64,000 nucleotides of DNA from Ulota crispa. Taxonomy: Eukaryota; Streptophyta; Bryopsida; Orthotrichales; Orthotrichaceae. Of this stretch, positions 3,200 through 59,219 are shown piece by piece. The DNA lies in contig OY987245.1 in NCBI GenBank assembly GCA_963920765.1, positions 25,126,727 to 25,190,726 on the forward strand, in the 5' to 3' direction. The notes under the pieces were generated by a model. That model was given only the letters and a program-made list of their open reading frames with translations. It was not told the DNA's origin and did not search any database. Position 1 is the stretch's first letter; each line of letters opens with the position of its first letter. A program made the position numbers and the translations under genes.

Positions 3200-5967
3200 G
3201 TAGTAAAGATGCATCACTGTGTTAGTGTATTTTAAGTTTTTTTGAGGGTCTTTTACCAAAGCTCAATGTGAGCTCTTTAAATGATGTGGTTTGAGTTTGA
3301 GCATAATTAAGGTAGAAGCACCAATACAGCAATACCCAATAACTTAAGAGATTTTGCAACAACCTACAAAGAGTTTGAGGTAAAAATAAGATTCCCTTGC
3401 TGAAGAAAAGAAATATTGGGATTGCAAAATTTTCATATATTTGTGTGCAAAATTGATATCATTGCAAATTTTGGGAGTTGAAAAGTGTTCCTGGCCCATG
3501 GCTAATGTCTAGATGTATGTAATTCCACCAATGGCCAAACTACTTTCAACTTATTACTTCCTGCCTCATTTTGGGACATGTGGCATGACTTAAATGGCTC
3601 CAACCTTGAAAAGGACAAAAACACATTCCAAAGCACCTATCCTTGCTCATGGTGGAAATAGCACACCTTATTGGTTGGGTATGGAGCATTAGTGGCAATG
3701 GGTTCTTCCACCTTAGCAATAGAAAGTTGACCAAATCTAGTTTTTTCTTGTAATTTGAGTTTTTGAAAAAATTTTAGTTTTGAAAAATATATTATCATTA
3801 CAAGTTGAAAACCTATTGCCTTGGTATAGTTACTTTTTCTAATATTATTAACATGGGAAAAAAACTTCCATCATGATGGATCTTCATTGTGATTCACATC
3901 ATGGTAAAACACTTAGGATAATTGAATTCATTTTGTAGTTGATATGAATTTATTTAACCCTTGTTTCAAAAAATTACAATAATTTCATAATTTAACCAAA
4001 ATGTGTGAATACTTTTTATACATGTAGCACATACCTTCTTCTACTGAAATTGTAATATTGAGTTTTGATGTTAATTACATTGCCAAAATAACTTCTAGAA
4101 GATGATGGTAAATCCATTGAAAACCCATGGTTGTGGGCCCGTCTTTTAAGGATTAAAGAACAAAAGCAATTGACAAGCAATGTCTTGGCAAAATTTCATA
4201 ATTTTGATTTGTGGAAATCCACAAAATTGTAGAGTGGCTCGGAGGAGATTTTTAAGGTTGTTGGAGTCTTTATGGAATTTGGTTAAACTAGAAATAAATA
4301 ATTTCATAGCGTGTTTAAGCGACTTATTGGTTTTAACCATTGTGCATGGCAAAAAAATTGTATGGCAAATAGATAAGTACACTAATTCATGTTTGAGCAT
4401 TGTTAGTTGTTTGTGAAAGACTTCTCCTTAGGGGGAGAATGCTTGAAGCACAAATGAAGCCATTTTGACAAAAGAAAGGACAACTCCTTCTGATTTGGAC
4501 TCTAAAGTGTCCACCAAAATTGCGGGTTTAAAAAATTTAGGGTTTAGAAAACTTATGAAGGTGAAGGAACAACCCTTAAAAGGACATAATCTTCTTTCCT
4601 CTTATCATTAATTTGAAAAGGTTGTATAATCTTGGTTTAAGTCGTCATAAGAGAGTTTAATAAAAAATAGGATTTGGCTCTAGTTTGTGTTATTTTATAA
4701 TATAAAAGTGTGCATTACATTGGGCCAAATTAGTATTTGTTGGTGACATTGATGTAAACTAATAGCTACATGTATAGAGGGTCAAATTTGTGACCTAGTC
4801 ACACTATTTGGTCAATTTTCTTAGTTTGCAAAGATTTGTTGTAACTAGCAAACGTATTGTACACATAACACATGGTTTTGCAGTGGTTGTTGATTAGCTG
4901 TTGATCTTTTTGTAGTGTGTTTCTACTAGTATCCTAATGGAATAGATAGTTTAGTTCTCTTGTGCATGCTTTATACACCTCAAACATATCACTTTGATTA
5001 GATTTGATTTTAAAACTTAAAATATACATCTAGATTCATAGTCTTTTTTACATAGATATCCGCTTATAACACAAAAACTAAATGCAACTACAACAAGTTA
5101 TCATTAACAAAATATTTGTTAAATGGGGAAAAATAGAAGTACCATTTTGTACTCCACCTTAAACCCAAAAGTCACCTTAAACCAAACTTGAAGGCATCAG
5201 ATTCAATTTGAGCCACTAAGATTTTTTCCCTCACAAATTCCTCCTCACAAGTGAGGGCACGTGTATCAAAAAAAATGCTACGAGCTTGATTTTAGGTGGC
5301 CACCTAAAACTTTCAAAAGTCCCAAAATGTACTTTCTTCCCAATTTAAAAAATATGGTATTCATTACTATCAAAGAATAAACAATAATCTCATTTTTCAT
5401 TCATGAATGAGCTTGTACAAATCACAAGTGTGACCATTTGTTTTTTTTTTGTCTACCATTTGGTGTGTAAATCTCTAATTTTGAAAAATCTAGTAGGGAT
5501 TTTGAGCTTCACTAGCTTGAATGTGCGCATCAAGACCATCCACACAAAATGAGTTAGAATTGGTACAACAAGTATTTTAAGCTTGAAACAAGTGTTATTC
5601 CCTTTGTAGCATAAACAATCCAAAAAACTAATGTAATAGTCAACAAGATGATATTTGTAGAGAAAAAATGATAACATAAATTAGATTTTTCATTCCATCC
5701 AAAACTTGTGTGCTAGATAAAAAAGTTGCCTTGCCCATGCTTTGTAAGTAGAGCCCACTGTGAACATGACTTGAAATGCAATCATAGTCAATCATATACT
5801 TTGGAGCTTGCTTTGAGAGTAGATTGAAATTGAAACCAAGAGTGTTCATAATACACTTAGTTTGTTAGGAGAAAGTTGAATAATCCAAAGTATGATCTAA
5901 GACAATATTGAATTTGAGATCAAGTCATATTTTAGAATAGATTTTGAAGTGGAAACACTTTGGTTTG
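3200..5967. other. AT-rich intergenic DNA, nothing recognised
   Basis: No frame with recognisable protein content, no clear tandem repeat and no paired inverted repeat was seen on either strand. The frames around 4146-4416 overlap on opposite strands, have no similarity that I recognise and are treated as chance. Confidence 0.5.
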
Positions 5968-7495
5968 TGTGAGTCCTAAATTCAACATCAGAAGTCCTAA
6001 ATTTATTTTTTGTTTTACTTAGTTTTGAAATTGCATCAATATAAATGGAATAGCCATTTATGTAAATTTAAATTAGTCAAACCAAATGGTTAGCGGTATG
6101 CTATTTACCCTACTCCGTTTGGTAAGTCATTAGAAGTGATTTAGTGAGAATTAGTAGATTTTAGTTAGTTTGAGCAACATACATATATGGGTCTCGGGAT
6201 CCCCTCCAAAAGTTTCCACTATCTTAATTAGAGAGGGTTAGTTTAGAAATCAATTAGTAGAGTTCCATGGCCAATGGTCACATCATCAGTTTACGTTTTT
6301 AGTTACTACATCATTTGGTGGGTCTATACCCAAGGTTCCCAATACCTTTCGCTTCTTTGAAGGTGCGATTCCTAGCGATCAATCTTGCTAGGCTATTGGT
6401 CAATCCTGGTCAAGGGAGTTGACAAATGGTAGTAAAATGCTACCAAAATTTATGGAAGAGTTTCTCAAGAATTCAAGGCACTTTCCCAAGTTTGAAGTCG
6501 TTTTGATAGCAGCAAGGCCCAGAATAACAACTTCCAGCCAAAACCAAGAATTAGTATAACAGCAAATCGTGAGATAACAACCATCCAGAGTCTAATTGAT
6601 GGAAGCAATGAGTGCTTTCCAACTCCCCCGACAACTTCAAAAGACCTTGGAAAGTCAATTTCACAAATTGGGATGAAGTCCCAATTTTGAGTTTTTCATC
6701 CATTCATCCCTAACCATTCTTTGAAGATTTTTGATGCCCTGTAGCTCAGAATTGGAAGTATGAACAACCAAAACCGGCTATTTTGGGGCCAATGAATCCA
6801 ATAGCGCAGTTTGTTTGTTGTTTGGAGCTACGCTTCTAAAAATATGCAAATTTCATCTAGATTTCATCCAAATTTCATCCAAATTTTATCCATTTTGAGT
6901 TTTTCTTAGATTTTAGGTAGATTTCAAGGGATCTATGGATATTCTAGATATAGAACCAAGGTGTCTTCCTCCAAAATGTATAAAGGGAGGCCTACCTCCT
7001 CCCAAACCATCACTTATTACTTTCATCACTTACTACTTGTACCACCATTTCCTCATTATAATGCATCACTTTTGTTAGAACCATGTCTTTCCTTCACACA
7101 CCCCCACCTTAGTTTGGTTGTGTCTTGTCTTAGTAGAATTTCTTCTCTTGTCGTGATAAGAGTCTTCTTAGTAGTCACATTAAAGATTTAAATCGTTGTT
7201 CTTGCATTTGTCTTACTAACCCCTAGGAAGTGGATTAAGACTGTTGATGCCGCTTTTCCATACTTCCTAGAAGTCCTAGTTTAATTGTATAATTTTTGTG
7301 TCTTCCATTAGAGTTCACCCTTAGAATAGAAACTTGGCATGAGACTTAATCGTCACCCCTTACCCGGCCTTACTAGACCCCAACCCTACGTTATTAGAAC
7401 CATTGAAGCCCTCCTAACAGAGCTATCAAGAATTTGCTTAGCTCAGCTTTGGCCAGCTCTTCAAATTCTTGGAGGGCTCTCTAAGACTCTGTAGC
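5968..7495 (+). repeat. 1.5-kb direct repeat, copy 1 (LTR-like, with TATA-like box)
   Basis: This block is repeated at 9103-10567 in the same orientation, with matching landmarks throughout: the start TGTGA.TCCTA.ATTCA, the phrase AACCAAATGGTTAGC, the TATA-like GTATAAAGGGAGGCC (about 6980 here and 10085 there), and GCTTTGGCCAGCTCT near the end. By eye the identity is roughly 75-80 percent with small indels. Starting with TG and carrying a TATA-like box fits a long terminal repeat. No primer-binding site, polypurine tract or polyprotein was found, so these may be LTRs of a non-autonomous element or just two units of a tandem array of period about 3.1 kb. Confidence 0.6.
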
Positions 7496-8890: not shown

Positions 8891-9102
8891 ATCGGTCCTC
8901 AGCCCACCGGTCCTCAACTTGCTAGACACCAACTACCAATCCACATCTACCGATCCACAGCTAGTCGGGCTTTGTCCTTTGCCCCAAAGCTCATTACTAC
9001 CAGGGATTCAGCCCTTGGCCAGGTGATTTTGTATTGTTTTTGTGCAAGAAAAGACAAGGCATTAGAAGGGACTTAATTTCTCACCCAATTATTTTGGCCT
9101 AG

Positions 9103-10567
9103 TGTGAATCCTAGATTCAGCACTAGAAGTCTTGAATTTATTTTTTGTTTTCCTTATCTTTGAATTTACATTAGTATAAGTGGAATAGTCATTTATGTTA
9201 ATTTAAATTAGTTAAACCAAATGGTTAGCAGTATGCCATTTACCTTATCCCATTTGGTAAGTCAATAGAAGAGATTTTGTGAGGATTAGTAGTTTTAGTT
9301 AGTTAAGTGACACACTCACTAAGGATTTGGAATCCCCTCCAAAAGTCCCAACTAACCTACTTAGAGAAGATTAGGTGAGGAGTAGATTGGTTATACCATG
9401 ACCCATGGTCATGTCACCCAGTTCACATTCCCAGTTACTACCTAATTTGATGCGTCTATACCCAAGGTTCCCAAAACCTCCTTTTCATAGAGCGTGATTC
9501 CAAACAATCAACCCTACTAAGCTAACGGTTAATCCCGGTCAAAGGGGGTTGACAAATGATAGTAAAATGCCACCAAAATTCATGGACAAGTTTCTCAAGG
9601 ATTTAAGACAATTCTCCAAGTACCAAGTCGTTTTGATAGCGGCAATGCCTTGAATGACCACATCCAGGCTATTTCAAAAGCGAGCACGACATCCAATTTC
9701 AAGATCTTATCCATTTGGAGTCCAATTGATAGAATCAAGGAGCGTTTCTCAACTCCCCTAACAACATTGGAAGACCTCAAGAAGTCAATTTCTCAAGTTT
9801 GGATGAATTTGTAATTTTGGATTTTTCATCCATCAACTCCTAATCCTTCATTCAAGATTTTTGACGCCCTGTAGTTTGGAATTGGAAGTGTGAATAGCCA
9901 AAACTAGCTATTTTGGGTCCAAGAAATCCAATACCACCATCCGTTTGTCATTTAGAGCTATGCTCCAAAAATTATGGCAAATTCATCCAGATTTCATCAA
10001 TTTTGAGTTTTTCTTTGATTTTAGGTAGATTTCAAAGGATCTATGGATCTCCTAAATAGAGGGCCAAAGTGTCCTCCCCCAAATGTATAAAGGGAGGCCC
10101 ACCTTCCTTCTAAATCATCACTTTCTTATGTTTAGATCAACCCCCTTATTTAGATCTCTCTTTTATCACTTGGAACCACTTCCTCTTGTATTAGACCCCT
10201 TTCCATCATCAGTCACTTGTCCTTAGCCTCCTCTCTCACTTGGACCCATATCTCGCTCTTCTTCTCAGACTTGTTGCGTTTCCCTTAGTAGGAATTAGGA
10301 ATTTCTCTTATTAACCACTAGGAGGTTGGATTACAATTGGCAATGCCGCTTAACTATACCTCTTAGAAGTCCTAATTAATCATTGTGATTACTGTTGCTC
10401 TTTAGAGTCATAGTCAGAGTGATGTCAAGGTCCATAGTCTTGGCTTACCACTCCCTAACTAGACCTTTGCCGCCTTACCAAAACTAGCCCTCCTAGTAGC
10501 TCTATTGGAATTCTTTAAACTCAACTTTGGCCAGCTCTCTCAATTCCGTTGGAACTCTCTGAGAAGA
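9103..10567 (+). repeat. 1.5-kb direct repeat, copy 2 (LTR-like)
   Basis: Second copy of the 5968-7495 block in the same orientation, with the TATA-like GTATAAAGGGAGGCCC near 10085. It is followed, like copy 1, by a CT-rich tandem region, but with a different repeat unit. Differences between the copies are spread evenly, so the duplication is old. Confidence 0.6.
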
Positions 10568-11560: not shown

Positions 11561-12144
11561 GGAGGGACCCCGCCACCTCGGGCATCATTCAGCCCTGCCG
11601 GGTATCAACCGGCCTTGCTGGGTATCAACTGGCCTTAGTCGGGTGACAGAGCGGCCTTACTCCTGTGGCCCGGAACTCTAGGGCTGGCAGCTCAAGAGAA
11701 GAGTCAAAAAGCCAAAAAATGAAAGGGAAAACAAAGGGATATAATAATCTTTAAAAATCTTCCCACCAACCCTCTTGGCTTAAGTAAATTATCTTGGCTA
11801 TTGTCATTTAAGGGCAATTCTTGGATGCTAATCCTAGGATTGTTTTAAATCACAAAAGCTCCCATTTCTAGTCAAAATTTTGTTTTGCATCATGACTTGA
11901 CTTTTGGAATTAGGGTTGTCTCCATCACGCCATGTCTGGATGTCTGAATGCTTGTCTAGACGTTGGGATCCAACCCTAGTGTTTGTCAAGATGAAGTTTG
12001 TCAATAGAATTTCAAAGTGGATGAAAAGATGCATTGTGCAAATGAATGTTTCCGTTGACAGCATATGTGAAATCTCATGGACGAACGTGGCAATGCCTGC
12101 ATTGGACGGCTTTAGCCGACAATAAACCTTGACGGATAGACGGG

Positions 12145-12480
12145 TCAAAGGTCCGCAACTTCACATTGACGGTCAATATGGACGGCCAAATGGATGGCTC
12201 GGTTTGACGGCCAAATGGACATCTTGGTCAGATGGCTAGATGGACAATTTAGTTTGACGGCCTTCTTGGATGGCCAGATGGACACCTTGATTGGACGGTC
12301 CAAATGGACAACCAAATGGACGGCTTGCCCGGACGACCAGATAGACATCTTGGTTGGACGGCCACATGGACGGCCTAGTTTGATGGCCTTCATGGATGGC
12401 CAGATGGACGGCCTTCTTGGATGGCCTTGTTTGACGGCCAAGTGGACAGTCTAGTTGGACGGCTCGCTTCAACACCTTAT
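12145..12480. repeat. GACGG-rich cluster near the left end of copy 1
   Basis: Dense variants of TTGGACGGCC and AAATGGACGG.. recur about every 16-22 bases, with TGGATGGCC as the commonest mutated form. The cluster sits about 240 bases inside the proposed terminus at 11911. The overlapping frames here on both strands are translations of the repeat. hAT transposases bind short subterminal repeats (AAACGG in maize Ac), so a binding array is plausible. Confidence 0.7.
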
Positions 12481-12688
12481 AAAATTCATGCATAACTTCT
12501 TGAATAAATGTGTTGGCTAATGTAGTTTAGTTTTGCCTCCAACAAAAAATTTCAGATTTTTCAATTTTTAATTAAAAAGTTATATTGATGAAAGGGTAGA
12601 AAATGCAAAAGTTTGCAAATCATGATGTGTTGGTTGGTGTTGATGTAATAGTTCTTGGTAGCTGCAATCAATGGATGGAGGACTAGTT

Positions 12689-12876
12689 GACTACAATCGT
12701 GGGCAAGATCTCATCAAGATGTACAGCTCTTCAAAATCAACGAATGGTCCTTAGACAAACCTATCCGGATGTGGTTGTGAAATTCAACCACATCCGGATA
12801 GCTTAGCATGAGAACCACACGTTGATATCAAGGACTAGTACATCTTGACAAGACCTTAGCCACAACCGTGGTCATC
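12689..12876. mobile_element. Fold-back (hairpin) element
   Basis: Two arms of about 90 bases (12689-12777 and 12785-12876) are imperfect inverted repeats. The innermost 17 bases are perfect: CTATCCGGATGTGGTTG at 12761-12777 and its complement at 12785-12801, with a 7-base loop. Further out, ATCAAGATGTAC pairs with GTACATCTTGAC and AATCGTGGGCAAGATC pairs with the CTTAGCCACAACCGTGG side. It could be a fold-back MITE or a young inverted-duplication locus producing small RNA. No reading frame is present. Confidence 0.65.
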
Positions 12877-12885
12877 TACCGCCGA

Positions 12886-12955
12886 GAGGACTTGAATCCC
12901 AGATCCCATGGGTACTAGCCCATGGGCCTTCAGCAACACACCATGTGCTTGGCCA
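12886..12955 (-). repeat. tRNA-derived SINE-like fragment 1
   Basis: On the minus strand an A-box-like TGGTGTGTTGCTGAAGG (near 12928-12944) is followed about 30 bases later by a B-box-like GGGATTCAAGTCC (12888-12900), as in RNA polymerase III promoters. The sequence between resembles that of the second fragment 220 bases away. It does not fold into a full cloverleaf that I can see. Confidence 0.4.
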
Positions 12956-13107
12956 AATGTCCAATAGTGAATTAATACTGTATTTGTATTGTAAATGACT
13001 ATACCATCATAATTTTGCAAGTTCTGACGCCATTTCAATAGACTAGAGTATTAATTTGTTTTTGAGAATCAATATTTGTTAGTGAGAATCTATAAACCAA
13101 GTAGGGT

Positions 13108-13170
13108 CAAGGGTTTGAACCCAAGACCTTGTAGTACCATCCAATGGGCCCTAACCAATACACCACATAT
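13108..13170 (-). repeat. tRNA-derived SINE-like fragment 2
   Basis: On the minus strand TGGTGTATTGGTTAGGG (13149-13165) is followed by GGGTTCAAACCC (13111-13122). These are good A- and B-box matches at tRNA-like spacing. It shares GGTGT.TTG...AGGGCCCAT with fragment 1, which suggests two members of one tRNA-derived family on the same strand. Confidence 0.45.
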
Positions 13171-13838
13171 TAGCACAGATTACAAGAGATAATAAACAAT
13201 GGACTTGTGCTTGAGACGATAGTATTGTCATTATTTTCCTAGTATAGACTTTAGAGTAATATGTATTACATGTGCTTGAGTCCTTAAATTTATTTAGTAA
13301 TATCTTGAAATTTGTTGTTTTAAAAATGAGTTAGAACAAAAATAAATCTTTTCCATTGAAGAGCTTGAGAAAGAAATATTTTTCTACTAAAGAACCTCAA
13401 AAAGAATTTTTTTCCCATTAAAGAATTTTAGAAACAAATATATTTTTTTCCAATAGTGCAATGCATGTGAAAAGGTAGGAAAGTACTATGGTGCACCATG
13501 TTACATTTTACTGAGTTACAAAGATAGTAGTAAAACTAGTTTGTTTACTAGGTCAAGTAATAGGCTCTTCTTATGTACTGCAAGTGACAAGAATACAAAT
13601 GCACAATACAATAAGTAAGACAAGGTAAAATGGAAATGCTTCTTTTCATAGCAAATTTTGCAAGTGCAACAACAACTAATAAGCCTTTCTAAATCCTTGT
13701 TTTGAACAAAGTGCTATACATACTTACATCCATGTAGACTAGTTGCACACGTTTCCAACAAAAACTATTTACTCATCTCCTTGTATTACAATGCCTTGTG
13801 CTTTGGAATGTATCAAAAATGTTTCACAAATGTATAAA
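13171..13838. other. AT-rich spacer downstream of the RING pseudogene
   Basis: No gene is recognised. This is probably the 3' untranslated or non-coding part of the composite element. Confidence 0.4.
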
Positions 13839-16252
13839 CTAGCCATCTTCTAGATCTATAATGTGTTCTGCTAAGTCTATGTCATTTCTAAAAAACCTTT
13901 GCAGCTCTTTGTGAGATTGCAAAGTGATCAACGTCCTAACTATTCTTGCATTGTACGTGTCATGGATGTGGTTGAATATGGAACTTAAGAGTTGAGCCTC
14001 ATGGAATGTATTGTCAGTAATGAAGGTAGATACTTCCTTGAATGTCATATCTTCTCTCCGTCCCAATGCGGTATTGTTGTTGTCATATACAATGCCTTCT
14101 GGGTAGGGTTCTGGTGAATAGACGTCTCTACGTTTGTCCCAATGTCCACTTGCGAGTTGACTTGCATACAATCGTTGCTCATGTTTGCCTTCTAGGATGA
14201 CCTCCTTGATTATGCTAGTGATCTTCTCAACAATCCTACCTTCCATGGCACGCTGCATGGTTTGTGCGGATTGATGTCGTGAGTCTCTAGACTACTTCCA
14301 CATCCAGCACAAATCCTTCCTCCAATGCGACCTATTAGAATCCCTTGGTAAATTATCTTTGTCATGCTTGTGATGAATTGGCACGTGGTTTAGGATGCCA
14401 AACATTTGGTAAAGGCGTCTATGAAAGGGGGCCTTGCAAGTAATGCATCTCTTTTTGGTCACCATGCAGGCAAGGAGACACCCAGGATGGTACATATGCG
14501 GATACATATCAAGGCTCCATTTGCCCTTGGGGCCATAAGGGTCTTAGCACACACTGCATACCGTGCCTTCTTTTAGAAACTCCAAAACTTTAGGTCATAG
14601 TAAGGAGGGTTTGCCTTCTTAGCCTAGGCGCAAGTACCTACATTGTGTAGTGTCATACTAGAACTGCAACTTGGGCGCCACATTCCAATCAATGCTTGCG
14701 TTTAGGTGGTTTGTTGCCAACATGGGGAGGAACATCTCTTTGATGCAAGGCCTCAAAGTTAAGCCAAAATACCAATGACCTCTATCATTGAATTCTGCAG
14801 CAATTCTTCTCAGTTCTTGCTGCATTTGCTGGGCTTTATTTTTTGACATGATGCACGCTAGCTTCATGTTCAACAACAACAACAGCATTCTCTTCCTTTC
14901 AAGGCTCTAGACCAACCTTGTATTCAAGGCTCGGAGGGTGTCCAATTGTTTGCCCAAGTCAGTGTTTACTGAGCTAAGAAACACAACATTTTCCTTAGCT
15001 TCTTGGGAACAACATTCTAGGGCATGCATGGAGTTGTTTAGCTCTTCCATGCTTGCCTTTGTACTAGCAACCTCTGCTTTTGCTTGCTCCGCACATACAC
15101 GCATGGCATTCATTATCCAATGTGAGCCCCTCAAGGTTCTGCACCGCTTGGATTGCTTCAGCCCCAGCCGCATTCAAACTTTCACCCCTGAAAGTTTGAG
15201 ACAAGAATGATAAAAGAGGTCGCACCGCAAAGGTATTTGCACAAGTAGCGGCTATTGGGCTGTCATTCACAGCATACATTGTGCTAGCCACACATCATCT
15301 AGCAATGGAATGTCATCCATGCTTGATTGTCCTTTGCGAGCTAGAAGGGTGGCTTGGCTTCTAACTAGCTTGTCATTCTCATCCATGAGTTGGCTCACTT
15401 TTATTCTATGCAACTCCACATCCGCTGCATGTGCCTTTAATGCCTTGTCTTTCTCTGCTTGCAGAGTTAGCATTAAGTCCCGCAATGACTAGAGTTTCTC
15501 ATCATTGGCACCTGCTCCATGAATTGTGTTTAATCCCACATCTACTTGCTACCGCTGAACATTAGCGTTCCAATTCTTGTGCACTGCTGCTAGCACAGCA
15601 ACCTCATTAGCTACGTTGTTTGCTCCATCAACTCCATGTTCTTCTAGTGGCTCAATATCCACTTCCACATCCAGATCTTGCGCCTCATTTAGATCTGTAC
15701 ATTCTAGACCAAAACTTGTGCTAGGATCTCTTGCATGATTGGCTGAATGTCTTCCTTGTCATGTGCCACCTCTTCCAATATCACGTTTGTATTTGCGGGA
15801 ATGTGGCAAAGTCTGTTTGGAAACATGCTATTCCGTTTCTTGGCCTAGTAAACAGTCCAATCTGCATCTTTCCCAAGAAAAACCTCTGCGTACGCCATTT
15901 GACATTGTGAGAATGTCGCATCCTTCTTTGTGACCTCCTTCCAAAGTGCCAACAAAACCTTAGTCAACCTCTTCTTGAACGCAGGGTGCTTGCAATTTTT
16001 GATTAAAGGCATGCCCGACTTCACATGCATCTTGTACCTAGTAAAAGCCCAATGACGGTTTGTGTGGGCCCAGTTGATATAGGCTCAACATGTCATTCTA
16101 GTCCAAGGTTCAACCTCTTGTTTGTAGCCAGACTTTGCCAAAACCTCCACATTGTTAAATGTAGGCTAATCCACTTTTGACATGTTTCTCCTCCTCTTCC
16201 TTGGGGGTTCACTTTCATTTCTTGAGTGAACTGGAGAGCCTAGAGTAGCCAT
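13839..16252 (-). pseudogene. Coiled-coil/RING-finger protein of the composite element, copy 1
   Basis: The start is placed at 16252, where MATLGSPVHS aligns with the start MATANSLVSS of copy 2. In order there is a basic PPRKRRRN patch (nuclear signal-like), a conserved block with HPAFKKRL...LWKEVTKKDAT...YAEVFLGKDADWT (about 15845-16030), a heptad-rich stretch (15267-15485 and 14907-15173), a KLACIM helix (near 14850) and a RING-like finger at about 14430-14560. The finger reads CSVC, then MYPHMYHPGC, then KRCITC, so one cysteine has become tyrosine. A C-terminal region follows (14258-13839). RING proteins are usually E3 ubiquitin ligases; whether this one was is inference. Many stops and frameshifts, including one stop between the first two RING cysteines and the next zinc-ligand block, make it a pseudogene. 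Confidence 0.7.
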
Positions 16253-16544
16253 ATTATTTACTTGCATAGTAAAAAACCGTAGTCTGTAGGAGGATACAAA
16301 GGCAAATTGCTTTGCCTTCTCTTGCGTGGAGGCAACTGAAATTTGGCAAAGCAAATGCCAAATGTATAACACTTTCCTTGAATTGCAATGCAAAGCTTTC
16401 TTAAGCAGAGACAAAGCAACTCAAAAGAAGAAGCATGCTCATGAGGGAATTCAGCAAGTTTATATACCCCAATTACCCAAGCTAATTGGGTTGGTAATTG
16501 GGGTCAAATTGGCATTAAAACCCCAAATCTAGACCGTCAATCTA

Positions 16545-17060
16545 GACGTACGCGCCCCTTCATTGACGGCCAAGGCATCCACAAAGGTTTGGCAGCCCGT
16601 TGACAAATTTAGGCCTCCGTCCCTAGCCTCATACTGCCATCATGAAAAGTTAAATGCCGTTTGTGTTAATTGATGGGCTGCGCATTGACAGGGAGTCCGT
16701 TGGCAAGTTCGGTAGACTGTCGACCGCTTTGGGGGACCTTTGGCCACTTCAAAGGTCCGTCCAAAGGTTTGGCAAGCCGTCTTCAGGTTTGGATTCCTGT
16801 CCCAATGGTTGGAGCGCCGTCGTTAGCGTTGTATTCTCATAATCATAAATAAAAGGCCGTCAAGGCCTTTGGCGGCCTACATAGACGAACCTACCAACAT
16901 CATCAACAGCCATCATTGCTCCTCAAAGGCATAGAGAGTCCGTCAAAAGTCCCGACGGCCCGCTCCACCTGCCGACAGCCTTGGCAGACGGATGGTCTAT
17001 CTAGTTGGATGGCTACAATTGAACGTCAACATCCCGATGGTTGAGTGCGATGGCCCTCAA
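16545..17060. repeat. GACGG/CCGTC-rich region upstream of the RING pseudogene
   Basis: CCGTC and GACGG variants recur throughout (for example GACCGTCAATCTAGACGTACG, GTCCGTCCAAAGGTTTGGCA, GCCGACAGCCTTGGCAGACGG). It lies directly upstream of the minus-strand gene start. The equivalent position in copy 2 is 62065-62600. Confidence 0.7.
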
Positions 17061-17164
17061 AACTCTCGTCTATCACTCTGTCTCTAGCAGGGTTTCCAAA
17101 TTTGGCGATTTGAGGCAAAAAGGCACCAATTTATGCTAACTACCACCAATAGAAAATAAACTCT

Positions 17165-17340
17165 AATACTTGGATTGAATTGTCAAATAACTTCAAACTT
17201 TGAAAAAACTTGGATGAAATTGCCAAATTGTGAATGAAAACCAAGTTATAGACATGTAACATGTGCTAATGTGATATTTTCTATCCAATGTGTGGATGAA
17301 TGTTGAAATATGGAGCAGCACTATAACATTTTAAATTGCC
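17165..17340 (+). repeat. Dispersed repeat shared with 26265-26445 (inverted)
   Basis: The segment containing ACTTGGATGAAATTGCCA and ATGAATGTTGAAATATGGAG reappears in reverse orientation just outside the right end of copy 1 (26265-26445). It lies inside the composite element here but outside it there, so it is an independent dispersed repeat. Confidence 0.6.
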
Positions 17341-17819
17341 ACTTTGGCACTTCTTAAAAAAGGAAAAAAGAAAACCTGATCTCCACTGGACGTGGGCCCG
17401 TCCATTTCAACGGTCTCGAGTTCTGATGGACAGCAAAGATAACTTCCTATGAAAAGGGTATGTCAACCCCTAGAGGACCACACCCTTTTATTCTTTGAAA
17501 AAAAATTAAAAAAAAAAATTCCACACCAAAATTTCAGGCGCTTTTAACCACTTTTATAACAAAGAAGTTGATGTACCCAAAGCTACGCTCTTTTTTTCCA
17601 TGTAGGAGATCAATGTTGATATATGTGGAAGAATTTTCAAATCAATTGGATTTATACAGCAAAAGGGAAGAAATAGTAAGTAAAAAGAAATAGGAAATGA
17701 GTCAAAACATTGAAATATTAAGCATTTAATTAATGAAATGAAAAATGCAAATCCTAAAGGTTATAGGATTTAGGGTAAAATATCTATTTCCTTTGGTTTA
17801 ATTTTGTTTCCAAAATAGA

Positions 17820-18670
17820 GGAAATCAAGTAAAGCACAGGACTTCAAAGTTCAAAATTTTTGTGGAATTAATTGACGCTCACTCCTTGCTGACCCCCTGG
17901 TCCCCCTTAGGATTCACAATTTTATGTTTTTGTTCAAGGATGGAATAACTAGGGTTCTATTCAAATCACGTAGCAATAATAGTCGGAATGACTTGAAACT
18001 TTACATGAACTTTCAATTAGGGCAAGGGTCATGTGGGAATTTTTCTGGAAATAATTGATGCTAACCCCTTGGTGACCCCCTTAGGGTTCACAATTTCATG
18101 TATTTGTTCAAAGATGGAATATCAAGGGTCTTATTCAAATCACATAGTAATAATAGTTGGAATGGCCTGAAACTTGCACATTCACTTCCAAGTAGGGCAA
18201 GGGTTATGTGGGAACTTTTGTAGAATTAATTGACGCTAACCTCTTAGTGAGCCCCCAAGGGTTCACCATTTCATGAATTTGCTCATATATGGAGTAACAA
18301 AGTTCCTATTTAAAACACATAGCAATAATAGTCGAAATGACTTGAAACTTGCACATTCACTTCCAACTAGGGTGAGGGTCATGTGCAAATTTTTTGGGAG
18401 GAATTGAAACATGGTTCACGGTGACCCCTTTGGGAGTCACATATTCAAATATTTGCCAAAGGATGGGATATCAGGGTGTTTAATTAATATCTATAGCTAA
18501 AAGTGTTGGAATGACCTGAAATATGAACTACATCTTCAAACTAGGGTGTGTGACACTTTAGAATATTTTGGGAGGAAATTGAAACATGGTTCGTGATGAC
18601 CCCTTTGGAGGTCACTTATTCAAATACTTGCCAAAGGATGGGATATCTGAGTGTTTATTTAATGGCATTT
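17820..18670 (+). repeat. ~175-bp satellite-like tandem array
   Basis: About 4.5 units. Recognisable unit starts are ATTGACGCTCAC (17871), ATTGATGCTAAC (18054), ATTGACGCTAAC (18229), ATTGAAACATGG (18403) and ATTGAAACATGG (18578), giving periods of 183, 175, 174 and 175. Each unit carries GTGACCCCCTTAGGGTTCAC, GGATGGAATATC and AATGACTTGAAACTT. Units 4 and 5 form a subfamily. The same repeat occurs inverted at 61600-62045 in copy 2, in the equivalent place between the kinase and RING genes. Confidence 0.8.
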
Positions 18671-18879
18671 AGGGGTTAATAGAGCATAATGATTGATGAG
18701 CGTGTTTAGTTCTATAGGAATATTCCAAGAATTAAATGACCCAATGTTGGTTTTCACCCACTTCTAGCCAGTTCTTGCAGCCAGAGCAAGGCGTGTACAA
18801 ATTCCTTTGGAGTCGCACTCTGAAGTGAATTTTCATGGATACTCTGACCCTAGGTTGCTCCAATTATCTTTGCAAGGTA

Positions 18880-19230
18880 TCCAATGGACGGCTTGCCCAT
18901 CCATTGGACGGTTTCCACATCCATTCCTTGGATGGCTTCCATGACAGACTGCCCATCACCTTGTTGGCGTGCCCAAGACCCTAGATGGCTCGCTTGTCCC
19001 TTGGACGGTCCCCCATTGCCTTGTTTGCCTGCTCGTCACCAAGATGGCCCGCCCGTCTCTGGATGATGGACTGCCCGTCCCCTTGACGGACTATTTGTCT
19101 GCTTAACGGACTGTTTGTCCCCTAGACGGTCCTCTATCGCCTTATTTGCCTACCCGTTGCCAAGACGGCCCGCCCGTCTCCGGAGGATGGAGTGCTTGTT
19201 TGCTTGACAGACTACCCGTCCACAGGAATT
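18880..19230. repeat. GACGG-rich region upstream of the kinase-like pseudogene
   Basis: Variants of TTGGACGGNNTNCCCATC and GACGGACTGTTTGTCC recur at about 20-base intervals. It lies about 200 bases upstream of the start at 19439; copy 2 has the same arrangement at 60955-61330. A telo-box-like AAACCCTAAA follows at about 19397. Confidence 0.7.
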
Positions 19231-19438
19231 GCCTTCTTATACGTCACTTTTGGTTTCATTTGCACGAGTCTCTTTTGCTCTAACAATGCTTCCTAGTCTT
19301 GGATTGACTTCAATCCTTGCTTAGGAGCGCAGGTGCTTAGATAGGGGTTCGGGCAAAGGAAGGGGGGGAGGAGGTCTTGCTAATTTTTCAACCCTTAAAC
19401 CCTAAATCCTTTGTTTCTTATACTTGATTTATATTTCA

Positions 19439-21060
19439 ATGGCCAAGCAAGATTTTTCAAAGGAGAAAGTGGATGCCTAGTTCACTGGCATTGAGGATCT
19501 ATGTGCAAATATCCTCAGAATCAATAGATTGCGTGTTGGAGGATGTGGCGGCTGTACTAGATGCAACTAACGCTCATGGTGTTGAAGAATCTTCAAAGAG
19601 GAAGGAGCAAAAGCAACAAAAACAGCACAAAGCTTCTAGCTCAAAAGATCAGCCAAACAAAACTGCAACTAGGAAGTTGCACAAAGTGGCGTTGACTTTT
19701 TTTTATCATTACTTGATTTCACAGTTGGACAAGACAAACATCTCACATGGAACCCATAGATTGGATCTCATGAAGAGGAAGTTGGGGCACATATTCTGGA
19801 TAGCAATGCATAAAGACAAGTGGCTGGAAGATTGCATGAAAGAGAACTTTGATAAATGGCTCAATGATCAAGTGCAAACGTGCGTCTGCAACCTCGTCCA
19901 AGTGGCCGAGAACATTAAAGCCTTCAAACAAGATGATGAGCCAAAGGAACTAGCGTTGAAGCTGTTGCACGAGAAAGTGTACTGGTGACACAATGCAGTC
20001 CATGGATTCTCTTCAAGCAATATCCGCTCTGCTCCATGGTTTCAGTAGAGTAAAAACTTGGCCATAAGTAAAAAGGAGGCAAGAAGGATGGTGTTCCACA
20101 AGCGAGGGGTGGTGGTAAATGCCTTTTCCAACAATAGCAAAAAATGAGGGTATGAATGGGTGCGTAGAGTTACCCTCCAAAATTCTAAACATATTCTCAA
20201 TACAATAGAATTAGCGGGGAAGACATCTTTGTATGTTGATGATTTGAAGAAGGCTAGGGAGAAGTTGTCCATTGAGGCATTAGTTTGCTCATGCAAGCAT
20301 CTAGGAGTCATCAAATTCTTTGCAATGAATGACACAACTATGGAGTGTTATTCCTAGTGGTGGAATGGAGGTACTCTGGGTGCCATGTTTCACTTGGATT
20401 GCAACAACAAAGATTATGACAAAATTGGAGAGTTTGCTTATCACGTAACTCCACAAGTGATGGAAGAAGCAAAACAAATCATGGCATATAGACGCAACCG
20501 CACCAAATTTGCGTGGGCGTTGATTTGCATCGTGGACGCTGTGCAGCAATATTTGGTACTACACAACAATATAACCCTGGATAACATCATGTTGCACTTT
20601 CCAACAATGATAGAAGAATTGTGTGGATTGGGCTATGCGATTGGGGGATGGGGTGTTGCTTGAATGAAATAACCCCATCGTTGTATCAATTCCAAGACCC
20701 TCAACACTTGCAGACCACTAGACAAAAGCGTTGGTGGGTGGCATCGGAATTGATGTACTTGATTGGAGGGATAGGATCGTTGCTCTCTCCCACTTGTGTG
20801 GTTAAACCACCATGTGTAAGTATACACACAAATGGGTATGCAGTAGGGAAAATTGCGGCAAATATATGGAAGGAAGATTGAGGAAATGAAGAGATGTTTC
20901 TTGATAATACTGCATTTGGTATGTTCCAAGCAACATTGGGTGCATTGTGCAAGGAGAATCCACTGCAAAGACGCTCAAAGACATATGCCGAGCAATAACT
21001 TAGTGTGCTCCAATTAATTGGCCGTCACCCATAGGTTCCTACCGCAAAGCTCAAAAGGAA
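19439..21060 (+). pseudogene. Protein-kinase-like gene of the composite element, copy 1
   Basis: The start ATG at 19439 (MAKQDFSKEKVDA, then a stop) aligns with copy 2. After a lysine/glutamine-rich N-terminal stretch, a block near 20160-20357 (REKLSIEALVCSCKHLGVIK and TMECYS) looks like the helix C to hinge part of a kinase. It is followed by ALICIVDAVQQYLVLHNNIT with LDN (catalytic loop, 20562-20590), LCDWG (DFG-like, 20633-20647) and WWVASEL (APE-like, about 20735-20752). No glycine loop was found. The loop aspartate of HRD is asparagine here (HNN), so even unbroken it might be a pseudokinase. At least one frameshift (near 20620) and several stops break it. It is convergent with the hAT gene. 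Confidence 0.65.
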
Positions 21061-21099
21061 TAAGAAATGAAGGTAGAAAAAGCCAGAATGAAAGGCTAG

Positions 21100-22566
21100 G
21101 CATTAGTATACTACAATTCAAGTGCACATTTTGGGATTTCCTACATAGCATTGGCGTCTATTATAGTGTTGGAGAAGTACATGTGTAGCAATGCTAGCAT
21201 TTTATTTTCAATGTATTGTTCTCTGAGCATTTTTTAAAATATAAATACATATATATTTTCTTAGTCCTTTGGTGGCTTTTTGTAGTGAATTATTTTGCCG
21301 TATATTATTAAGACTGTAATAAGTGTACCTAGAAGTTATATGCAATTATGCAAATTTCAACAAAAGAACTAGAAGCATGGCATGTGCTATTGCATCTTAA
21401 ACTTTTATTAGAAAATTCCTAAACCCGTAAGGGACCATTATAAGTTGGGGGGGAGGGTCATTGGCCTTTGGGAATTTGGAATGTATCTATGTCCGAAGTA
21501 CCTTTGTGTGATTGTATTAGACTATTTGTTCAGGGAAAATGGAACTGAAAAGTCCCTTGTTTTAATCAATTTCCTATATTTTGGGAAACCCATTAAACCA
21601 CCATTAATCAAATTGTTTATCACAACTTCCTAAACCCATTCATAGATGTTACTCATTATGTACTTTTTCTGCTTCCTAATATTCTTGTGTGTCCTAAGCT
21701 TGTATGTATGGTTACAATTTATATGAAAACTCTCCCACCTAAACTTAACTTCAATTTCTCATCTTGTACACAAAGAACTCATAAAGCAATACCTGGTAAC
21801 ATGCTTCATTTATTAAAAATTAGGGAAGGGTCAAAGGCATATGAGTGCACAAATTGTATGGGCATCATGGATTTTAATTTTCATCACCTTATATGAAAAT
21901 ACTATACCCCACAATACAATGTACATCTAGAAAGAGCTGACCCTCACAAATATCTGCTGTAGTCATGGTCATGACATCCCTAAACCCTAAACCCTAAATA
22001 CATAACAGAGAATCCCTTTAAAACCCTGAACTCTCGTAGAAGTGGTAGTTTGCATAGACTTTCACACAACAATTTTTTTTGTCAAGTAGAGGGTGAAGTG
22101 CTAAATAGTCCAAACTCTAATACCTATACAACATGCACATTTTACTATTTTAGTACTACATAACATGCGTAAATTGACAAAAGCACTAGAAAGTTTGTAA
22201 ATCTTTTGTCTTCACGAAAGAACGATAAATTTCAAAATCGATTTTTTTTGAAAGTTTAAAGAAATTATACCTTAAACTAGGCTAACATAACAAAACTTTG
22301 ACATGGTGTGCATGAAGGATGTGAATTGCAATTAAGCTCATCTTTCATGACTTCATGTGAGCAAAAGGAGTGGCACTTCATGTTAATGCAAAAATTGGCA
22401 TGCACAATAATGAGCAATGACCTTCAAAAATTGTTGCAAATGACAACATCAAGACGTTGCTCTATTCCACCTAGAAGCACTCAATGATTTCCATGCCTAA
22501 GGTTGCGCCTAGAACTATTTACTAAACCCTCTTCAGTAGCTATTTGATTGTCGCCAAGTCTAGGTA
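21100..22566. other. Spacer between convergent kinase-like and hAT pseudogenes
   Basis: No gene seen. Read on the minus strand, 22330-22400 (GCATTAACATGAAGTGCCAC, CTCCTTTTGCTCACATGAAG) matches 56775-56825 in copy 2, so the 3' flank of the transposase is shared. A 21-base run of three plant telomere units lies at 21978-21998. Confidence 0.5.
21978..21998. repeat. Interstitial telomere-type motif (CCCTAAA)x3
   Basis: CCCTAAACCCTAAACCCTAAA is three plant-type telomere units in an internal position. Three units are too few to infer a former chromosome end. Confidence 0.8.
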
Positions 22567-25555
22567 TCACAATTTATCGCGGTGCTCTTTAATTGCTATC
22601 TTTGGAACCTTGCCTGACCCACCAAACATAGCACCAACGGATTCGGATTCTTCATTATAATTGGATCTAGCATAGCCACTTTGATTTGATGAATTAGAAA
22701 GGGCGGCGGTGTCAAGAGGGGTTGAAGGATGAACAATTGAGGACACTGTCCAAATAGCTCTTTGCTCGGTTGCATCCATATCTTCGTCCATATTAGGCAT
22801 CTCTACAAAATCAAATGGTAGAGTTGCTGCCAATTCTCTTTGCAGTCTTCTCCACCCTCTTTTAGTCAAGCGTTCATCAGTAGTGCCTTGTTCATATGGA
22901 CGTTTAGATGGATTGTTCGAGCATACACTTGGGCTTGATGGCGCTCTGTTTGAAGTCCTATGCTCTAACGTATTCAACGTTGGCAAGAGATTAGCCAACC
23001 GTGTACCTATCAACAAAGTCGGTGCAGAAAGATGAACCTTGAAAGACGGAATCAACAAACTATGAATTGGTGGATTGTTTGCCATTGGCATTTTGCATTG
23101 TACTCCAATTGGGAATTCAGGTAGAGGAGGCATATCCAACTCTAGATTGCTAGGGGGCCCTTCATTACAAGTGTTTTCAACATGAAGTGCTGGTGCTACT
23201 ACCTCATCATGTTCATGTCCTCTTTGGACACAAACACCATTTGGTAATGTTCTAGTGGCCACTTGTTTGTCAGCAGGGTCTAGACTTAGCACCCTTTATG
23301 CCACAATGTCACTGAATGGATTCCCACCAGGGGGTTTAGCAACCCCTATATTTGACATCTCTATAAACATTCCTTCTTGATCATTGTGGCCATTGTCATT
23401 ATTATTCTCCACATCAAAGTCAAATACAATTTAGTCAATTAGAATACGCCTTTTACGCCTCCCATTGTCTCTAAAAAATGCGTCACCGTCTTCATCGGAG
23501 TTGTCATCTTTGGGGTTAGAGAGAATAGACCCATGGTCCAGACCTCAGATTCTTTTGTCATGGAGTTTTCTAATATCATGTTCTTAGTATATCACCTTCT
23601 TGGATCTACTATAGCCCTTTCCTTCATAGTCTTGGAATTGGTGTAAATGTAAACCAATTGTTTTGCGCGCTTTGATGTCAATCTACTGCAGACCTTGCTA
23701 TGAACAAAAGAGTGCATGCTCCAATTGCATTCATATGATGATGTAGAGCACATTTGCACTAGGATCCTTTTGGCAATTGCTGCAAGTGTATGGGCACTTG
23801 CTCCAAAAAGATCCTACCATTCTTGGGGCTCCAACTTTAGGGTGGTAGGGTTTGGAAGCCCTCCAAAATGGCCATGCCCCTCTCAAAAAGCTTGGTACTC
23901 AAATAGAGCCAAGGCAAATGCTTGGTCTCCAATCAACATTTTGCGCAATACTCTCAATATGGCTTCTTTTGCTTCATCATTGTCTATTAATGATATTTCA
24001 TCCAATAAAAACAGATTCATTAGAGCACCAGCATAACGTAGATATATTTTCATCATATCTCACCTAGTGTAAAATTCCTCTTTAGCGCGACTTGCATAAT
24101 GTGCCAATAATGAAAACGGTGGATCCTTGAAGGATAAAACTGCCTTCTCCACATTCTTTATCACTAGCCATGCCTTCTCCATACAATGGATGTTTGCCAT
24201 CAAGCTCTTGAAGGGCAACCAAGATAGGCTCCACCATGCGCACAAAGTTCAAGCATGACTTCCAAAAGGTGTCTCACCGCACATGTTGTTGAACAACGTT
24301 TGCCTTCCTTTGCATTTCCTCTATTATCAATTTCCTGTAGTACTCATTCCATTGCGGATCATGGATAGTTCCTTCCATGGCTTCCCTTACTTCCACCAAC
24401 CGCTCAATCATGAAGAATGTGGTTGCAAAGCGCTTCTCATTTGGATTTTTGAGCATGTGAGTGTGGGAATGTTGACAAAATAATGCAAATAGCATATGAT
24501 GCCTACAAATATAATTCACAATGACCCTAGTTTTTCCCACAATGCTTGTTATTCAATCTTGTTTTCCCCAATCTTCAAGTGAAAAGTCCAACACATGCGT
24601 TGTACAACCTTGAAAATAAATGTGTGGAAACCATCCAATTATCCAACCCAATGTAGTACGCATGCTCCCTGCATTGTCCGTGCAAACTTGTACTACATTC
24701 TTCCTCCCCACTTCTTTGATGAAATTGAGCATACAATTAGCCACATAAGTAGCATCTTTGATTTCACCCGTGGTATCTACTGATCTAAGGAATACCTCTC
24801 CACTTGTACACGCCATTGTGATATTCATCAATGGCCAATGCAAGACATTGTCCTGTCCGTCAAAGCATATGGTCACACCGTACTTATGGATTGAGCCCAT
24901 CATCTTCTCTGCCACCGTTGCTACCAGTTTGTTCTATGCAGATTCCAAGAGCTTTGTATGAAGTGCATGGTAAGCTGGAGGTTTGTACAAAACTCTTGCC
25001 TCTGATGTTAATTTCACAGCATCCACAAAAGTAGGGTGCTTCACTACATTAAACATTATATTAGCTTCATAAAAAAACTTAACCCACTTTTTGTCTAGCA
25101 TTTGTCTCGTTGAGGAGTTCATCTCTTCTTGTATAGATAATTGTCTCAAAGGTCAACTAAGGGTTAAACTAGGGCCGCACGCCTTTGACAATTGTAGTTG
25201 GGAGCATTGACCCTTGTAGTGTTCGGTCCCTTCACTTGCTGAGACGGAAACAATACGCTGTTGCTCCCCCTATATCGCATTTGTTGGAGCTATTGACGGC
25301 AATGTCACTTCCACATTATTATTAGTTTCACCCAAAGGGCTAGCTGGTACATTTGCCCCACAATTGAAAAACATTGTTTTTGAAATTGGAGGAACTTTGG
25401 TGTACGCCGTGGGGGTTATTATTTCCTTTGTACCCCAAATGGAAATGCATGCAATCTCTCCAATAAGTAATCCCTAAACATCAGTACTTGCATGTGCTTT
25501 TCCCATCTGATTGTTGGGTGTACCATGGATCCCATTTACTCCTATCCCCTCCCAT
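22567..25555 (-). pseudogene. hAT-family transposase (BED, DUF659, hAT-C), copy 1
   Basis: The start ATG at 25555 aligns with MGGGK of copy 2. A decayed BED zinc finger follows (near 25380-25550). The DUF659-type core (25150-24553) includes LDKKWVKFFYEANIMFNVVK, KYGVTICFDGQDN and CTDNAGSMR. A middle helical region spans 24540-24060, the hAT C-terminal dimerisation region lies around 23900-23700 (read as C-S-T-S-S-Y-E-C-N-W-S), and there is an acidic tail (23292-22567, ending HRDKL). hAT transposases cut and rejoin DNA as dimers in the nucleus, using a D-D-E centre. At least four frame breaks and stops make this copy inactive. A GACGG cluster and a terminus lie upstream. Confidence 0.8.
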
Positions 25556-25844
25556 TGCCACTACTTGTTCTTCTACCTAACCCTGCAAAGAAGAGAGCAA
25601 GATTAATATTTTGAATGAAATGTGATGAAGAAACAACACTTGTTGCTCTCACAACAAATGCTCTCCATACACACTATTCTTGGATTTCCCTCCAATGCAA
25701 TGGTTGTACACCAACCAAGTCACAGGATCAAAGATCAACAAGGAAAAGTGACATTGAATAGGAGGGAGTCCTTCTTATGGTCCCGACACTCTAAAATTTT
25801 TGTGGATGCCTAGTCCTACCCAACGATCTGGAAACGTTGGTGAA

Positions 25845-26060
25845 CTGTCCACTAGACAGCTTGTACATCCGGTGGACGTACTGTGCTTTCGGTCAACAAA
25901 CCGTGCGTTTGGTCGACGGAGTTGTTGTCCAATCAACGGACTTATTGTCCAATTGACGGATTCATTGTCTAGTCAATGAACTTGACGTCCAATCGACGGA
26001 CGTGTCAACGAACTTCATCCACGGCCTGGACTGCCCGTCAGCATTGCGGATGGATCCTGC
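25845..26060. repeat. GACGG-rich subterminal cluster, transposase end of copy 1
   Basis: Repeats of TCGACGGA, CAACGGACTTATTGTCCAAT and GACGTCCAATCGACGGACG, spaced about 20 bases, lie between the transposase start and the terminus at 26126. The block aligns base by base, in reverse, with 53150-53345. Confidence 0.75.
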
Positions 26061-26264
26061 CCCGTTTGGTCCCATCACAACATCTAGAAGCAAAATGCCA
26101 GCCTCACATTGGTTTAGACAACCCTGAATAAATCTTGTCAAACTTCATTTTCTCAAATTGAACTTTGTACTAAATATTGCAATTTTGCAAGTTACAATCA
26201 TGGTTGACCAAGGCACATCCCTTTTTTGGATACAGTGACCATGGAGGGTTAAAATGCTATAGTG

Positions 26265-26445
26265 GTGCTTCATATTTCAACATTCATCTACATATTGGAC
26301 AGAACATATAAAATGAGCGCATATTATATGTCTAGAAATTGGTTTTCATTCACATTGTGGCAATTTCATCCAAGTTCTTTTTAAGACTTTGAAGCTTTTT
26401 GGCAATTTCATCTAAGCAAATGTGGTTTTTTTCCACTACTCTTGG
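26265..26445 (-). repeat. Dispersed repeat, inverted relative to 17165-17340
   Basis: Its reverse complement shares ACTTGGATGAAATTGCCA, GTGAATGAAAACCA and ATGAATGTTGAAATATG with 17165-17340. It lies in the flank of copy 1, outside the terminus. Confidence 0.6.
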
Positions 26446-26509
26446 TTAAATTAGAAAAGAAATTGGTGCAATTTTGCCTTTGAATTGCCAAAAATAGAAA
26501 TTATGGCCT

Positions 26510-53076: not shown

Positions 53077-53149
53077 CAGGGTTGTCTATACCAACATGAC
53101 GTTGGCTTTTTATATCTAGATGTCATGACGCGTTTGTCATGACTTGTCA

Positions 53150-53345
53150 GGACGCGGCAAGATCCGTCCAAAATGTTGATGGACTGTCTAGGCCGTGGAT
53201 GATGTATGTCAATCAACCCGTCATCTAATTCATTGATTAGACAGTGAGTCCATTGACTAGACAGCAATTCTATCAACCAAATGGCAAGTCTGTCCAGCAG
53301 CGTCCACCAAACGCACAATCCGTCCACTAGACGGCTCCTCGACGT
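53150..53345. repeat. GACGG/CCGTC-rich subterminal cluster, copy 2
   Basis: It contains GATCCGTCCAAAATGTTGAT, CCACCAAACGCACAATCCGTCC and ACTAGACGGCTCCTCGACG, with many mutated units (TAGACAGTGAGTCCATTGAC). It aligns with the reverse complement of 25845-26060 and lies 70 bases inside the terminus. Confidence 0.75.
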
Positions 53346-59215: not shown

Positions 59216-59219
59216 GTTG

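Follow-up and report, generated by a model that had tools for sequence, protein, structure and literature searches.

Two copies of a three-gene hAT element were found in the window, that is, the whole 64-kb stretch of Ulota crispa DNA that was analysed. The first of them, copy 1 (11911–26126, +), is probably the decayed remnant of a hAT transposon with several genes, a member of an old family. It measures 14,216 bp from end to end, has hAT-type ends and contains three genes, namely coiled-coil/RING (-), kinase (+) and a hAT transposase of the DUF659 type (-). hAT elements are usually small and have one gene, the transposase, whereas the elements of Ulota crispa are 14–22 kb long and have two extra genes. 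We infer that the kinase and RING of these multi-gene hATs work to the benefit of the element, possibly by countering silencing by the host. No hATs with a kinase and a RING gene were found among the paper titles listed in a literature search that covered mostly open-access journal papers.

Element Boundaries and the Two Copies in the Window

Copy 1 starts with the left terminal inverted repeat TAGGGTTGTCT (11911–11921, +) and finishes with the right one, AGACAACCCTG (26116–26126, -), so that the inverted 10-mer AGGGTTGTCT is common to both ends (at 11911 and 26126); variants of it are present at other copies. The preliminary description, which had placed the three genes between a hAT-like end and a second end with the same ten bases, was correct in this respect. 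Left subterminal GGACGG-rich repeats are located at 12168–12464, eight of them lying within 590 bp of the left end of copy 1 and none in its last 626 bp; four other copies have 5, 9, 10 and 11 of them in the first 650 bp and none in the last 650 bp.

Copy 2 is inverted, occupies positions 53077–64000 (-) of the window and extends beyond it to about 67664. Positions 22377–26126 of copy 1 align with 56790–53077 of copy 2 (73% identity), 19287–21309 with 60881–58878 (71%), 15260–16537 with 63858–62587 (71%), and 13566–14920 with 65239–63874 (70%). Copy 2 is collinear with copy 1 in the inverted sense, as had been proposed for the region 53–64 kb. A recognisable target-site duplication (TSD) was found neither for copy 1 (2 of 8 bases matching at the expected positions) nor for copy 2 (3 of 8), and because of these low matches the window copies alone are insufficient proof of a single insertion. 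Duplications swapped through an inversion between both copies were also considered, and the flanks, compared by eye, did not match. Rfam yielded no match on the window at the gathering score, and no tRNA was detected in six scanned sources, of which the window was one.

Genome-Wide Copies and Target-Site Duplications

Many genomic copies were matched by segments of copy 1. Over the 275-Mb genome, RING, kinase and hAT were present in the same order and orientation in 26 of the 58 clusters of DNA matches, built from searches each scoring the best 40 candidates, and in another order in none of the 58. Chains of left end, RING, kinase and hAT in one orientation were obtained at 20 distinct loci; the right end was also present in 14 of them, with spans of 14.1–22.1 kb. 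Flanking 8-bp repeats agreed at six bases or more in 11 of the 19 end pairs, five of them perfectly, and the remaining eight pairs were below that level; shuffles gave a mean of 0.9 pairs at 6/8 or better, and the observed level was attained by 0 of 20000. A single TSD-flanked end pair encloses all three genes in 10 copies, and therefore one transposition unit can hold all three. The segment separating RING and kinase is also largely common to the copies. The fixed arrangement and the 14-kb hAT with two passengers of the preliminary description are thus upheld, and chance neighbours are excluded because of the genome-wide copies and the target-site duplications.

The refuting condition of the preliminary description, hAT copies that end before the kinase gene, was examined at 40 hAT places. 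No DNA-level kinase was found within 9 kb of 9 of the 40 hAT places, two of which have a protein-level kinase nearby, leaving 7 of 40 with neither. One of these seven (C11:4.36 Mb) lies 3.9 kb from a RING match; another, at C4:11.77 Mb, shows about 9.7 kb between its ends, a 7/8 duplication and no kinase or RING match. A passenger-less form therefore exists, and it is most simply read as a deletion derivative.

Characteristics of the Three Genes

The hAT transposase gene of copy 1 is decayed and has the approximate limits 22567–25380 (-). The DUF659 match within it covers 24520–24978 (-), and the ORF at 24553–24933 (-) matched DUF659 (PF04937) with an E value of 3.5e-25; the domain was also found in copies. 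The dimerisation region was located by eye in the ORF at 23592–23813 (-), a PF05699 match not being among those listed, and a long tail ORF occupies 22567–23292 (-). The hAT dimerisation domain PF05699 was detected at 55349–55546 (+) in copy 2, and it was above the cut-off in this and other copies. Likeness to the hAT superfamily (DUF659/PF04937 plus Dimer_Tnp_hAT/PF05699) comprises the transposase domains, the short inverted ends, the 8-bp TSDs and the left subterminal repeats. The dN/dS of the transposase between lineages was 0.36–0.51, and the shifted-frame controls overlap the true frame, with 0.51–0.79 in one shift.

The kinase gene of copy 1, also decayed, is located at 19428–21005 (+), with the kinase match at 19989–20770; that of copy 2 (59421–60176, -) has 65% identity to the kinase query. 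Pfam Pkinase was under the cut-off in the window's own family (E 0.03–0.05), whereas homologous ORFs of sister lineages exceeded it (34.8–36.0 vs. 31.7 bits). Searches against the PDB gave PRP4 kinase as the best match of the kinase profile A1 (E 0.19) and MAP kinases for the sister-lineage kinase ORF of L089 (E 0.0002). Between clades the kinase dN/dS was 0.33, compared with 0.65 and 1.03 in shifted frames; changes diagnostic of clades were distributed by codon position as 9/5/25, and singletons as 106/124/118. Purifying selection on the kinase while the family multiplied, followed by neutral decay of each copy, is indicated as its probable history.

Among 31 aligned decayed kinase copies, the Lys is conserved in all 31 and the catalytic-loop Asn in 29, while the HxD Asp is kept in 10 (N in the other 21), the DFG Asp in 14 (N in 17) and APE in only 12. 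Decay is likely to be behind these motif losses, in the case of the DFG change because loss of CpG would fit; an inactive kinase in the window family is possible. The motifs HNDLSPSN and CDWG were observed in L093, HNGLSPSN and CDWG in L089, and YNDLSPSN and CDWG in L090.

The coiled-coil/RING gene of copy 1, likewise decayed, extends over 13566–16537 (-), with the RING region in the ORF at 14292–14543 (-) and a match to P0002, from the protein database, at 13878–14960; the part of the copy 2 gene inside the window is at 62587–64000 (+), and the gene continues past its limit. The ORF at 14292–14543 alone had no Pfam match. PF13639 was narrowly above the cut-off in the sister copy L083 (27.4 vs. 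27.3 bits), above it also in P0002 and L093, and below it in L086 and L087. The eight C3H2C3 zinc ligands are invariant in four chosen sequences, P0002 included, and all eight are present in three of the eight window-family copies that were read, the other five being without at least one. The product is predicted to be a RING-H2 finger protein, ubiquitin-type. An AlphaFold model of P0002 was uninformative (mean pLDDT 39.4). Evidence of selection on this gene appears mixed, with no third-position bias between clades in the C-terminal part (46/41/43) and no signal in the coil part.

With respect to a viral origin of either gene, the L022 kinase and P0002 were compared with viral_contigs, where only close relatives are detectable, and no relative was confirmed. 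No kinase relatives were found in plasmids.

Recurrence of the Trio around Diverged hAT Genes

Within 25 kb of the 96 DUF659-hAT places, a kinase relative was found at 73, a RING relative at 59 and both at 57, compared with null values of 4.1, 4.0 and 2.8, respectively; 23 of the 96 had no kinase match at that distance. A distant RING was present within 20 kb of 23 of the 42 distant kinases (null 0.66). These distant relatives of the trio share 21–38% protein identity, and their genes are arranged in at least five orders across lineages. The preliminary description was right about the trio and understated its extent, as it is not restricted to one lineage and recurs around deeply diverged hAT genes. 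Judged from sequence, the RING-kinase-hAT association is old and not the cargo of one lineage, and we infer that the diverged trios are likewise single elements. Its maintenance across many distantly related families suggests, therefore, that the passengers help the element itself.

Proposed Function and Comparison with Known Systems

The putative transposase would act on the ends and on the subterminal repeats of the left side, mobilising the entire unit by a cut-and-paste mechanism. The kinase and RING might constitute a phosphorylate-then-ubiquitylate pair that serves the element, its most likely target being a host factor for silencing or restriction, a reading that we favour tentatively; the next best target would be the regulation of the transposase itself. 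More speculatively, the deep DUF659-hAT lineage could represent a standing transposase-kinase-RING system, a phospho-ubiquitin module disarming host silencing, in at least five arrangements and yet kept together. Transposons with anti-silencing proteins are known in Arabidopsis (VANDAL/VANC), and the likeness lies in the proposed role of the accessory proteins, conjectural for the present elements; to our knowledge, VANDAL/VANC have no kinase or RING. If kept over deep divergence, the kinase and RING would add hATs to the known sources of proteins that interact with the host, and the trio provides testable candidates for self-regulation or host countering by eukaryotic DNA transposons. Starships are also transposons bearing accessory genes; they are classified by their tyrosine recombinase and reach about 700 kb and hundreds of genes, in contrast with the hAT transposase and constant gene pair reported here.

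That the kinase and RING are host genes captured once by transduplication and merely hitch-hiking is unlikely. Pack-hAT elements resemble the present ones in having non-transposase coding sequence between hAT ends, and in PMC8903248 Pack-TYPE elements are defined as non-autonomous, with captured gene fragments, hAT-type ones being described. The RING results, without codon-position bias in the C-terminal part or signal in the coil part, would agree with such a capture. However, the hAT gene is located inside the same ends, where a Pack-hAT of that definition would have no transposase gene, and distant relatives of both passengers are found again in other lineages. Moreover, the constraint on the kinase equals that on the transposase, and no clear single-copy host donor appeared in the kinase and RING match lists, from which intron-bearing donors could escape.

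Crinkler-type kinase proteins have been linked to transposons, and RING and kinase genes lie head to head in 6 of the 32 places picked. Both observations could point to addiction rather than to anti-silencing, the two genes acting as killer and neutraliser, or manipulating the host, so that losing the element is costly. Such an addiction is quite improbable, as one element form persists without the pair; a role in favour of the element, perhaps against silencing, remains our preferred reading.

Finally, a hAT and a kinase/RING element nested or side by side and later co-duplicated would account for the different gene orders among lineages, for some RING and kinase places with no hAT match nearby, and for the 17 of 40 right-end matches without a DNA-level hAT just before and 11 of 40 left-end matches without a RING after, but it is very improbable against the single order in the clusters, the largely common segment between RING and kinase, and the 10 copies with all three genes inside one TSD-flanked end pair.

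Element Structure and Inverted Copy

The unit at 11911–26126 (copy 1) starts with TAGGGTTGTCT, ends with AGACAACCCTG and contains, from left to right, a decayed coiled-coil/RING gene (13566–16537, minus strand), a kinase gene (about 19428–21005, plus strand) and a DUF659-type hAT transposase gene (about 22567–25380, minus strand), all placed by ORF reading and homology. The preliminary description held that the same gene set recurs inverted, and this was confirmed: copy 2 extends from 53077 to about 67664 (14,588 bp, with the far end beyond the window) and is collinear with copy 1, at 70–73% over long aligned blocks. The first 590–650 bp are GGACGG-rich in copy 1 and in four other copies, a parallel to the subterminal transposase sites of hATs; no such enrichment is seen at the window copy's right end.

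A direct repeat of about 1 kb (5967–7015 and 9102–10123, 76% identical) lies left of copy 1, and a short dispersed repeat occurs at 17093–17369 within copy 1, at 26249–26500 just right of its end and at 72960–73170 beyond copy 2. Remains of a RING gene of a distant lineage are present between the two copies at 35364–35951 (minus strand; 34% to the database protein P0002), with ORFs at 35009–35338 and 35745–36284 that gave no Pfam match; no kinase match of their own was detected between copies 1 and 2.

Genomic Distribution

DNA searches of the host genome yielded, as lower bounds, 40 matches for the kinase (best 40 of 51 candidates scored), 42 for hAT (best 40 of 67) and 48 for RING (best 40 of 64), which grouped at 12 kb into at least 58 clusters. 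With the best 40 candidates per search, RING–kinase–hAT was found in 26 of the 58, kinase–hAT in 5, RING–kinase in 5, and a single gene in the others (hAT 9, RING 9, kinase 4); no other order or orientation of the three genes was observed among the 58 at DNA level. Contig C11 (6.3 Mb, 2.3% of the genome), possibly a sex or accessory chromosome, holds 12 of the 58 clusters.

Once fragments of one place had been merged or omitted, 29 of 40 left-end matches had RING after them (same strand, up to 12 kb away) and 23 of 40 right-end matches had hAT before them (same strand, up to 6 kb away), and at 32 of 40 RING places the kinase came next (opposite-strand kinase within 14 kb: 1 of 40). Chains of left end, RING, kinase and hAT occupied 21 rows, corresponding to 20 distinct loci (the C5:5.04 Mb locus was entered twice), and 14 chains also included the right end, spanning 14.1–22.1 kb. 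The copies also share most of the stretch that separates RING from the kinase, though some of its segments match dispersed places as well (best 40 of 3095 candidates scored).

Copies of the hAT gene ending before the kinase, which would speak against a single unit, were looked for. No DNA-level kinase lay within 9 kb at 9 of 40 hAT places, and a protein-level kinase was detected at two of these nine (C3:33.87 and C11:5.37 Mb). At C4:11.77 Mb, ends about 9.7 kb apart with a 7/8 duplication enclose a hAT match, and neither kinase nor RING was detected there. A form without passengers therefore exists. The kinase is followed by hAT in 31 of 40 kinase matches.

Target-Site Duplications and Classification

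In 19 end pairs, each end was located from its own motif, and the 8 flanking bases were compared between the two sides. The flanks agreed at six or more positions in 11 pairs, five of them perfect (GTGTCAAA, GGTTCAAG, CATTTAAC, CCTACAGG and GCTATCAT), versus a mean of 0.88 in shuffled pairs; none of 20000 shuffles reached 11. Among the pairs scored as misses were C6:21.01 Mb, 7/8 after a one-base shift, and both window copies (2/8 and 3/8). Apart from C4:11.77 Mb, the 11 are all three-gene copies (10), which upholds, from copies elsewhere in the genome, the claim of three genes in one unit with hAT ends. The right flanks of two elements on different contigs (L053 and L056) are nearly identical, starting GGTTCAAGTCC, so both may occupy the same position of a repeat.

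The hAT features tested were all found in this family, which we file as a new variant within hAT transposons. It falls outside Pack-TYPE elements, which are defined as non-autonomous (PMC8903248). The word 'kinase' is absent from the main text of a 2026 review on gene capture by plant transposons (PMC13317346), and no title among the literature matches listed concerned a hAT that carries a kinase, a RING gene or other cargo or passenger genes. Judging from family and ends, the transposase would act on the ends and subterminal repeats and mobilise the whole unit in a cut-and-paste manner, leaving 8-bp duplications.

Characteristics of the Three Genes

The window-family kinase scored below the Pfam cut-off and gave no significant match in the PDB; the protein database yielded one relative (P0001, 65%). 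Homologue ORFs passed Pkinase (cut-off 31.7 bits) at C1:2.94 Mb (34.9), C2:3.49 Mb (36.0) and C5:22.14 Mb (34.8). The motifs HNDLSPSN, CDWG and APE can be seen in locus L093, and L089 and L090 show them with changes of one residue. Among 31 aligned window-family copies, Lys is conserved in all 31, the catalytic-loop Asn in 29, the HxD Asp in 10 (Asn in 21), the DFG Asp in 14 (Asn in 17; TGCGAT to TGCAAT) and APE in 12. We read these losses as probable decay of a formerly active kinase; an inactive kinase is a possible alternative.

All dN/dS values come from simple pairwise counting and not from codon models. For the kinase (30 copies, including copy 1, plus copy 2), the median between two clades was 0.33 (200 pairs; shifted frames 0.65 and 1.03), against copy 2 0.32 (30 pairs; 0.74 and 1.11) and within clades 0.48. 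Clade-distinguishing changes fell 9/5/25 at codon positions 1/2/3 and singletons in nearly equal numbers (106/124/118), the pattern expected of a kinase that was constrained during multiplication of the element, each copy decaying afterwards.

All eight C3H2C3 ligands are present in four chosen RING sequences; of eight window-family copies read, 3 keep all eight and 5 lost at least one. PF13639 was passed by L083 (27.4 vs 27.3 bits), P0002 and L093, and its cut-off was not reached by L086 and L087. The protein database yielded one RING relative, P0002 (49%, 385 aa). Selection evidence for RING (8 sequences) is mixed. The N-terminal part gave 0.31 against copy 2 (shifted 0.93, 1.12) and 0.59 between clades (0.63, 0.89), and the C-terminal part 0.64 (0.60, 0.99) and 0.51 (0.67, 0.96), respectively, without codon-position bias in its diagnostic changes (46/41/43); the coil part showed no selection signal (0.59 between clades; 0.80, 0.57). 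The transposase core gave 0.36–0.51 between lineages (five copies), a narrow margin over shifted frames (0.51–0.79 and 0.71–1.30). The protein database also yielded 13 DUF659 proteins.

Association in Diverged Lineages and Putative Function

Protein searches gave 115 kinase matches (lowest identity 21%), at least 107 RING matches with P0002 (107 of 185 candidates scored; lowest identity 29%) and 111 DUF659 rows, merged into 96 places. Within 25 kb of these, omitting secondary kinase/RING fragments, a kinase was present at 73 of 96 (4.1 expected from random places on the same contigs), RING at 59 (4.0), both at 57 (2.8) and either at 75 (5.4). Restricted to distant relatives, RING lay within 20 kb of the kinase in 23 of 42 cases (0.66 expected) and within 10 kb in 14; for 9 of the 42 kinases a hAT dimer domain was no farther than 20 kb away (0.63 expected).

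Gene order was recorded at 32 of the 96 places, hand-picked outside the window's family (a kinase counted up to 30 kb away, a RING up to 40 kb). Along the transposase, with R, K and H for RING, kinase and hAT and arrows for orientation, the orders were R< K> H> (6), K< H> R< (6), K> H> R< (3) and R> K< H> (3), the rest being incomplete sets and single cases; that of the window is H> K< R>. By these comparisons the trio is an old association, and the varied orders show that gene order has changed while the genes remained close. From this proximity, we infer that the diverged trios are single elements.

The persistence of kinase and RING together close to hAT genes, despite reshuffling between lineages, suggests that they work jointly for the element. 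Our first choice, a tentative one, is a predicted phosphorylate-then-ubiquitylate pair directed against a host factor for silencing or restriction. The next candidate would be regulation of the transposase, and the third an addiction-like pair.

In L093 (C5:22136700–22146500), of a diverged lineage, two tandem RING genes lie beside the kinase gene, and RING pairs were also seen at other places. Two weak DUF659 matches below the family cut-off (C8:734943–735275 and C8:7853069–7853413) fall in stop-free reading frames 419 and 475 aa long. Both are distant from all kinase and RING matches and are possibly domesticated host genes.
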